A DNA stretch of 64,000 nucleotides. It comes from Artemia franciscana. Taxonomy: Eukaryota; Arthropoda; Branchiopoda; Anostraca; Artemiidae. Numbering within the stretch: position 1 is the first letter of the stretch; each line of letters starts with the position of its first letter. Of this stretch, positions 48,984-57,671 are shown piece by piece. The notes beneath the pieces are model-generated. The model was not told the DNA's origin. It saw nothing but the letters and a program-made list of their open reading frames with translations, and did not search any database. The stretch is taken from contig NC_088867.1 of assembly GCF_032884065.1 (NCBI RefSeq), positions 27,895,507 to 27,959,506 on the forward strand. The letters run 5' to 3'. The position numbers were made by a program, and so were the translations under genes.

Positions 48984-48991
48984 CAAACCAT
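48984..48991. repeat. Target-site duplication, left copy (CAAACCAT)
   Basis: CAAACCAT directly precedes the left terminus of the 8.67-kb element and is repeated exactly after its right terminus at 57664-57671. Confidence 0.85.
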
Positions 48992-51842
48992 GGTAAAATT
49001 CTAATCCATTGACTTTTTGCTATCTTGGAAAGTTGTTGGGCTAGAGAATTGAAACTTTCAGAGATGTGTCTACAGGCTAAAGCATATCCTGGGCAGTTAT
49101 TTTGAGATCCCTAACTATGCCCCTTCCCCCTCCTCTATATAACACAGTTTTTTGTGCATTACAGCTTATATTTTGGTCAAATTTGATCCTATATTACTAT
49201 TAAAAGTGTAAATCCTTGCTTACCTTAGAAAAATTCAACTTTTCACTGTTTTTAAGCTACTATATTCCATAATTACTCATAATTACTTCACCTGCATTGA
49301 AAAACAATTATCACCTTTTATGGTACAGTTAAGACTAGAATGTAGGTATTTAAATGCATCCAGTTTGAAACTCTTATCTTTAAAGGGCTTTTGACAGGGT
49401 TAATACAGATAAGACTTTGAACTTTTAAGGGGCTTCTCACTCAAAATTATGATTTGTTTCTACAATTGGGTAAGGTTATTATGTTATATTAATTTGAAAA
49501 AATTAGAAAGGTATATTTGTAACTTACAAATGGGTGATCAGATCTTAATGAAGTTTGATATTTAGAAGGATATTGTGTCTCAAAGCTCTTATTTTAAATC
49601 CCGACCGGATCTGGTGACATTGGGGGGGGGAGTTTAGGGTGGGGGAACCTAAAATCATGGAAAACCCTTAGATTGGAGGGGTCAGGATGAAACTTGGTGG
49701 GAATAAGCAGAAGTCTTATCGATCTCTCTTGCTCTGTCTGTCTCTTTCTTTCTCTCTCTCTCTCTCTCTCTCTCTCTCTCTCTCTCTCTCTCTCTCTCTC
49801 TCTCTCTCTCTCTCTCTCTCTCTCTCTCTCTCTCTCTCTCTCTCTCTCTCTCTCTCTCTCTCTCTCTCTCTCTCTCTCTCTCTCTCTCTAAGTTGAAGAA
49901 ACTTTTCATACTTATTTTTTCATTGTTCTTTAAAAAAATTCCAAGAAATCCTGCACCCCCTTCATGGAAATCTTTTTCCCCATGACTAATTCCTCCATGG
50001 AAAACTCCTCCCGCATAACCCCATCCCCTCAACCCCTCCCCCAGCCAAAAACATCCCCCTGAAAGTGCCTATACACTTCCCAATAACCATTACTATATGT
50101 AAACACTGATCAAGGTTTTTAACTTGCAGCAACTCCCACGGGGACTGTCGGGGAGTAAGTTGTCCCCAAAGACATAGTTATTAGATTTTTCAACTATGCT
50201 GAATATATGAATATATTTCGACTATATGAATCTGAAGGTGTGATTTTTGTTAAGACTCTATGACTTTTAAGGGGTGTTTTCCCCTATTATCTAAAATAAG
50301 GCAAATTTTCTCAGGCTTGTAAGTTATGATGGTTAAGTCTAAACTTAATGAGACCTATATATTTGAAATCATCATTAAAATGCAATTCTTTTGATGTAAC
50401 TATTATTATAAAATTATATAAATTAGAGTTTTGGTTACTATTGAGCTGGGTTGCTCCTTACTACTGTTCGTTATCATGAACTGATTTGGTCTGTTTTTTT
50501 TTTTTTTTCAGTTATTTATATTTAACATTTTAAATGGTACAGAACGAATAGAATTCACAAACTTTTGCATAGTAGATTTATTTAGATTAATGTCCACCTT
50601 CTGACCAAAGTAAGTTTTTGATATATAAATTGCCTTCATTATCCTTACATGTTCTATCTTTGTATGTTTTGTATTTTGGCCAACTTGATTAGGCCCTTAA
50701 TTATTATAGCAAAGTGAAGTTTTGATGAGCTAAGTATAAATTACATAAAAAAACTAGTTTTTTAACTGAAAGTAAGGAGCGACATTAAAACTTAAAACGA
50801 ACAGAAATTACTCCGTATATGAAATGGATTGTCCCCTCTGTAATACCTCGCTCTTTACGCTAAAGCATTTTTAGTAATTTCAACTATTTATTCTATGGCC
50901 TTTGTGATTCAGGGGTCATTCTTAAGGAATTGGGAAAAATTTAAACCTTAATATCAAGAGCAAGGTATCAATGATGGGTGAGCCTCCTCATATACGCAAT
51001 AAAAACACACGAATATTGAAGTTTGCTATGTAATTTAATTCGTAAGTTCTGTATATTTTTTACTTATGAAAACGTTTGTAAAAAGTTAAAAGTTATAGTT
51101 GCCTTTTTAAGTAATCAAAAAATAGGAGGGCAACTAGGTCTTCTCCCTTGCTCCTTTTTTCTCAAAATCTTCCGGTTAAAACTGTGAAAAAGCCATTTGG
51201 CCCCAAAAAATTAATATGCAAATTTCGTTTTAATTATTTATGTGTGGAGAGCCAAGATCAAACCATGCATTAATTCAAAGACGTCCAGAAATTAAACAAA
51301 AAAGCGATTTTTTTTTAAATGAAAGTAAGGAGCAACATTAAAACTTAAAATGAACAGAAATTACTCCGTATATGATACGGTAAAACTCCGTATACGATAT
51401 ACATTTTAAAACAGTAAAAAACCTTAGCGTAAAGAGCGGGGCGTTGTGGAGAAAAAGCCCCTTTCATATATGGAGTAATTTCTGATCGTTTTAAGTTCTA
51501 ATGTTGCTCCTTACTTTCACTTAAAAAACTTTTTTTGTTTAATTGTAGATAGGAGCTTGAAACTACAGTAGGATTCTCTGATACGCTGAATCTGGTGGTG
51601 TAAATTTCATTAAGGTTCTATGATTTTTATGGGTTGTTTCCTCCTTACCTGTGCTTCCAAACTTAAGTGTCTAGCCGGCAATCCTTCAATTCGTTGCAAT
51701 CCAAGTTTCTACCACCAGTCACGACCTGGTAGGGCAACGGGGAGGAAGCTACGGGGTTCTGCTCTGCCTCAAGGTTTGTTGCTTGACCTAAATTTCTTGA
51801 CTTGTCTAGTTCTTCACTGTATCGCATTATTAGGTATTTTGG
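48992..51842 (+). repeat. Left inverted arm of the foldback element
   Basis: About 2.85 kb, reverse complement of 54602-57663. It carries (TC)n at 49750-49888, a tail module at about 50130-50480 and hairpin modules at 50757-50870 and 51290-51545. A frame of 93 codons (51620-51901) has its counterpart in the other arm but resembles no protein. Compared with the right arm it lacks about 290 bases, at the junction near 50190-50215. Confidence 0.88.
49750..49888. repeat. (TC)n microsatellite in left arm
   Basis: About 70 TC units, longer than the matching (GA)n tract in the right arm. Open frames of serine-leucine or arginine-glutamate repeats here are artefacts. Confidence 0.97.
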
Positions 51843-57600: not shown

Positions 57601-57663
57601 TTTCATTTCTCTAGCCCAACAACTTTCCAAGATAGCAAAAAGTCAATGGATTAGAATTTTACC
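54602..57663 (-). repeat. Right inverted arm of the foldback element
   Basis: About 3.06 kb, reverse complement of the left arm, with small differences throughout. It carries hairpin modules near 54910-55140 and 55570-55690, the full tail module at about 55960-56600 and (GA)n at 56839-56934. An 80-codon frame on the minus strand (54578-54820) matches the 51620-51901 frame of the left arm at most positions. Confidence 0.88.
56839..56934. repeat. (GA)n microsatellite in right arm
   Basis: About 48 GA units with one CA interruption near 56851. It is the counterpart of the (TC)n tract in the left arm. Confidence 0.97.
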
Positions 57664-57671
57664 CAAACCAT
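57664..57671. repeat. Target-site duplication, right copy (CAAACCAT)
   Basis: An exact copy of 48984-48991 that starts at the base after the right terminus TTTTACC. Confidence 0.85.

Follow-up and report, generated by a model that had tools for sequence, protein, structure and literature searches.

By its sequence, the element described here is very probably an internally rearranged, non-autonomous Merlin (IS1595/IS1016-like) DNA transposon of Artemia franciscana. It lies in a window of 64,000 nucleotides (the whole stretch of DNA that was analyzed; contig NC_088867.1, positions 27,895,507 to 27,959,506). In keeping with this source, the genome has group-1 LEA repeats (PF00477) on C83; such repeats are not known from animals other than Artemia. 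The original prediction was a complete foldback transposon with an exact 8-bp target duplication, and this was confirmed. The element starts with GGTAAAATTCTAATCC and finishes with the reverse complement of GGTAAAATTCTAATCC, giving GG...CC termini, and CAAACCAT stands on both sides. Arms of about 2.85 and 3.06 kb around a core of about 2.76 kb had been predicted, which agrees with the measured lengths (Table 1). As in other members of the foldback class, the long inverted arms make up most of the element, are variable in length, and are internally repetitive. A (TC)n run is in the outer left arm (49723-49889), and an (AG)n run is in the outer right arm (56838-56934). The final 139 bp of the right arm have matches in short, diverged relatives of the family as well. 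The outer termini had been described correctly, but a third terminus of 21 bp inside the element had been overlooked. This inner terminus is probably the scar of a rearrangement.

Table 1. Coordinates (window positions) of the foldback element and its parts
Feature	Position	Strand	Remarks
Complete element, very probably non-autonomous Merlin foldback	48992..57663	.	8,672 bp; ends and copies elsewhere
Left target-site duplication, CAAACCAT	48984..48991	.	One copy in 6/6 fetched empty-site paralogues
Right target-site duplication, CAAACCAT	57664..57671	.	Same empty-site paralogues
Left arm	48992..51839	+	2,848 bp
Right arm	54601..57663	-	3,063 bp; inverted copy of left arm, 96.9% identical
Core	51840..54600	.	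2,761 bp; mostly matches flanks of transposase in C19 and C6 sister copies
Outer left arm (element 1-904)	48992..49895	+	Family-specific terminal region, no repeat X match
Outer right arm (element 7841-8672)	56832..57663	-	
Third terminus copy, 21 bp, exact	54570..54590	-	Core/right-arm junction
Left-arm stretch with repeat X-related pieces	50227..51645	.	Element 1236-1497, 1745-1883, 2002-2654
Core pieces related to repeat X	53047..54554	.	Element 4056-4591 and 4893-5563
Right-arm stretch with repeat X-related pieces	54795..56831	.	Element 5804-6718 and 6966-7840

The original prediction required other copies ending at the same bases, and the genome contains many. A 33-base terminus matched at 611 places in the 1.27-Gb genome with three or fewer mismatches (311 forward and 300 reverse), and a reversed-pattern control matched at none in either orientation. 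We examined 24 two-ended pairs, in two sets of 14 and 10 (L011 and L011+12 have one left end in common). Exact target duplications of 8 or 9 bp flanked 11 of them. Four others had an 8-mer with one mismatch, one had an exact 7-mer, and the remaining eight had no duplication. Recombination or incorrect pairing of ends may account for those eight. Two random window positions would share an exact 8-mer with a probability of about 1e-4; the exact duplication of L020 is the low-complexity sequence CTTTTTTT. GG was at both ends in 12 of 14 pairs (L025 starts with AG, and L022 ends with CG).

Empty sites were also found. A query made of the two flanks of the element with a single CAAACCAT between them was matched across the join in more than 40 of 139 rows, some of these being both strands of one palindromic place. 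All six paralogous sites that we fetched were continuous. The element had landed in a dispersed, palindromic, MITE-like repeat that is present in many places (window 48883-48991 and 57951-58068). A long (TA)n run lies just to the right of the element (58585-58745).

The family also has short relatives with ends like GGTAAAATTCTAGTTAATTG, 75 to 82% identical over about 114 bp, which represent a diverged family with the same ends (L015 5477-6104, L020 9486, L022 14 and 3756, L023 588, and L024 2200 and 2822). The L020 element itself (7,657 bp) is a near-full palindrome with arms of 3,518 bp at 96.3% identity, and it holds pieces of transposase in both orientations.

Long palindromes are known to be prone to misassembly, and the contig has an assembly gap of 100 Ns elsewhere in the window (34650-34749). 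Both would favor an assembly artefact, in which the inverted arms came from a read folded back on itself. However, alignment of the arms gave 2,683 matches and 86 substitutions (67 transitions and 19 transversions; 96.9% identity), together with 13 gap blocks, the largest being 153, 111, and 70 bp. Therefore, the arms are not an assembly mirror. Also, independent inverted-arm copies are present at other loci, each with its own duplication, and paralogous empty sites exist. We consider an artefact extremely improbable, and on this point the original prediction stood.

The arms might instead be separate elements, two neighboring or recombined family members that moved as a unit, with the inner terminus as their joint. 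The position of that terminus at the core/right-arm junction fits a composite of this kind, as does the repetition of arm sequence in the core at 74 to 84% identity. So does the L011/L012 pair, two copies that end in one right flank, 7 kb apart, in a 98% direct repeat. However, the outer duplication matches on both sides, and the arms are collinear over 2.85 kb at a single level of divergence (95.7 to 97.6% identity in eight of eight segments tested). Furthermore, the left-arm/core junction is common to five other loci besides the window copy. A composite is unlikely on this evidence, although it keeps some weight. We favor a single element with rearranged interior. Most of what the original prediction called the core is arm-like or derived from repeats and does not amount to cargo of its own.

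The inner arm modules and the core modules match a very abundant dispersed repeat, which we call repeat X. It occupies window positions 28173-29139, with an end near GAGCCGGGTCGCTCCTTACTACAGTTC, and includes an inverted pair of 128 bp (28173-28300/28352-28479). Smaller pieces of it lie at 12811-12976, 16033-16098, 23583-23746, and 45598-45774. A genome search gave 9,761 first-look candidates, of which 40 were scored. The arm modules are about 81 to 88% identical to the window copy of repeat X, counted where it matches over 70 bp or more. This match, and the abundance of the repeat, might suggest that most of the arm length is secondary, two inverted copies of repeat X having landed in a Merlin with short ends. 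However, the arms are about 96 to 98% alike in their X and non-X parts both, well above their identity to the window copy of repeat X. Therefore, repeat X had entered before the two arms were copied or matched up. In addition, the X-free outer part still accounts for about 0.83 to 0.9 kb of each arm. We regard secondary arms as decidedly unlikely.

No transposase had been visible in the window copy, and an autonomous partner had been implied; both points held. The sister transposase used as a tblastn query found no match in the window at an E value of 1e-3 or below, whereas a reading frame for a transposase is present in several copies that share the ends of the element. The L017 copy, of which only one end was within the stretch fetched, has an intact open reading frame of 304 amino acids. 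Its sole Pfam match was PF12762 (DDE_Tnp_IS1595; E value, 3.6e-18), and the N-terminal Zn_Tnp_IS1595 domain was not found (PF12762 alone at an E value of 0.1 or below). Several long open frames lie upstream of the element in this locus (L017 502-5000). A search of solved structures found no relative of the L017 transposase by sequence. Protein relatives on plasmids came to 68 records, and among the 12 listed, 11 were annotated as IS1595 and one was without annotation. Residues D157, D218, and E255 were invariant in all five aligned sequences (two copies from this genome and three bacterial IS1595 transposases). From family knowledge plus the domain match, we take these residues to be the catalytic DDE triad.

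A genome search with the transposase gave 361 candidates, from which 132 matches were scored. Nine of the best 12 places were no more than 7 kb from one of the 100 termini (of 611) that were listed. Most of the best matches stop at residues 286 to 291, so the usual C terminus may differ from that of L017. Two copies, both on C12, have a terminus on each side of the transposase and are flanked by a duplication; a transposase-bearing copy of this kind is what the original prediction had proposed to look for. One is 8,656 bp long (C12:9209427-9218082; duplication GTAACTTT). The other is 13,507 bp long (C12:34374645-34388151, L018+L029; duplication CAATTATT) and has two transposase regions. The second region, which is frameshifted, comes from a 3.75-kb direct duplication (98.9%) within the element, either real or made in assembly. 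A transposase fragment of 46 codons (residues 227 to 272) was also seen inside arms (L010 2134-2271, L019 5279-5416, L023 5001-5138, and L025 4958-5095). In L019 and L023, this piece adjoins a full transposase gene and is inverted to it.

Merlin transposons are described in the relevant passages of PMC8101967 as having 5'-GG ends, duplications of 8 to 9 bp, and a DDE_Tnp_IS1595 transposase. The family studied here has GG ends, duplications of 8 or 9 bp, and, in its sister copies, DDE_Tnp_IS1595 with the DDE triad and no Zn_Tnp_IS1595. Therefore, the element belongs with Merlin and with neither the P nor the MULE superfamily. The original prediction had drawn its parallels from P- and MULE-type elements, and the identity of the sister-copy transposase overturned them. 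A P-superfamily (Galileo-like), MULE, or hAT foldback element would have a similar architecture and an 8-bp duplication, and Galileo is portrayed in part of PMC3573991 with long, internally repetitive inverted repeats. However, Pfam gives only DDE_Tnp_IS1595 for the transposase between the same ends (PF12762, in the L017 frame), with no P-type, MULE, or hAT transposase found there. The IS1595 annotation of the plasmid relatives listed, and the three residues invariant with bacterial IS1595 transposases, also argue against these superfamilies. We rejected all three readings once the transposase had been identified, and there is very little chance that any of them is correct. The terminal inverted repeats given for Merlin in the same part of PMC8101967 are 24 to 462 bp long. 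This range, which is not a defining criterion, is exceeded by the arms here (2,848 and 3,063 bp) and in L020. All defining features testable from sequence identify the element as a Merlin, its architecture is that of a foldback element, and the union of both is the new part.

The interior of the window copy points to its origin. About positions 1-711, 804-1589, and 1859-2715 of the 2,761-bp core have counterparts next to the transposase of the C19 copy; the C6 copy has a similar set of core pieces beside its own. The window copy is without the 1,714 bp that hold the transposase in the sister copy. Therefore, it is a derivative that has no transposase. A cargo gene in the core was also considered and was rejected. 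Ten open frames of the element were compared with Pfam, and nothing scored above the cutoff (the best subthreshold match was zf-CCCH; E value, 0.082). Rfam found no match over 48900-57800.

How the element moves can be proposed from its superfamily. We infer that sister copies would supply the DDE transposase, which would bind to the GGTAAAATTCTAATCC ends held in common and cut the element out in trans. Insertion would then be at a staggered cut of 8 or 9 bp, as expected for the superfamily; duplications of these lengths are what we observed at the insertion sites. The kilobase arms would probably come from repair, with a gap or a broken copy being mended by copying from the opposite arm. Such copying would both extend the arms and match them up again, and it would bring pieces of a nearby dispersed repeat into both.

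The comparison of arms among copies bears on this. In 3 of 12 two-ended elements (C12, L014, and L020), the match between the two arms extends beyond that to any other copy. In the remaining nine, the match between the arms is no longer than their match to some other copy; in this longest-match comparison, the window's own arms were followed only to 1,141 bp, where the limit on chaining cut them off. In a tree of the ends, both ends of one element were sisters in 6 of 13 two-ended elements, two of these pairs being well supported (bootstrap values not settled). Because nine of 12 elements have arms that match elsewhere for as long, and two of six sister pairs are well supported, re-matching of arms within each element is only suggested. 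For Galileo, its authors consider errors in repair, exchange between copies, and the expansion of arms in part of PMC3573991. A broader idea, to which we give an even chance, is that the foldback form arose independently on Merlin. The arms would have been rebuilt repeatedly as kilobase inverted duplications, copying any sequence toward the interior, including foreign repeats and transposase fragments, and ending in near-palindromes like L020. Arm growth would then belong to cut-and-paste repair generally, rather than to the P or MULE transposase.

The foldback class is old and mixed, and this family would add a third transposase superfamily with that architecture. Long arms have been implicated in inversions, in what part of PMC2775673 reports for Galileo. 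A. franciscana is a widely used laboratory crustacean, and copies with a transposase, arm-only derivatives, short relatives, and empty sites all occur in its one genome. Therefore, the origin of foldback arms can be tested there by comparison. Searches of open-access text gave no report, among the papers listed, of foldback or kilobase arms on a Merlin, or of a Merlin in Artemia.

Merlin elements, the eukaryotic relatives of IS1016/IS1595, have the same GG ends, the same duplications of 8 to 9 bp, and the same DDE_Tnp_IS1595 transposase. However, their inverted repeats fall within 24 to 462 bp in the portion of PMC8101967 that gives them, whereas the arms here reach 2.8 to 3.5 kb and contain pieces of another repeat. 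Galileo, of the P superfamily in Drosophila, likewise has long, variable, internally repetitive inverted arms, and transposase-bearing copies and two-arm derivatives side by side, as part of PMC3573991 describes. Its transposase belongs to an unrelated superfamily, and a P transposase was not found in the element family here. Tetris, a foldback element of Drosophila virilis, is presented in part of PMC4079207 as modular and apparently non-autonomous, with outermost ends in common with a MITE, and the autonomous transposon is not named there. The Artemia family similarly has short diverged relatives with the same ends, but its transposase was found. Tm1 of root-knot nematodes (Mutator/Foldback) is likewise a foldback element tied to a known transposase superfamily, which is Mutator and not Merlin according to the Tm1 passages of PMC3169594.
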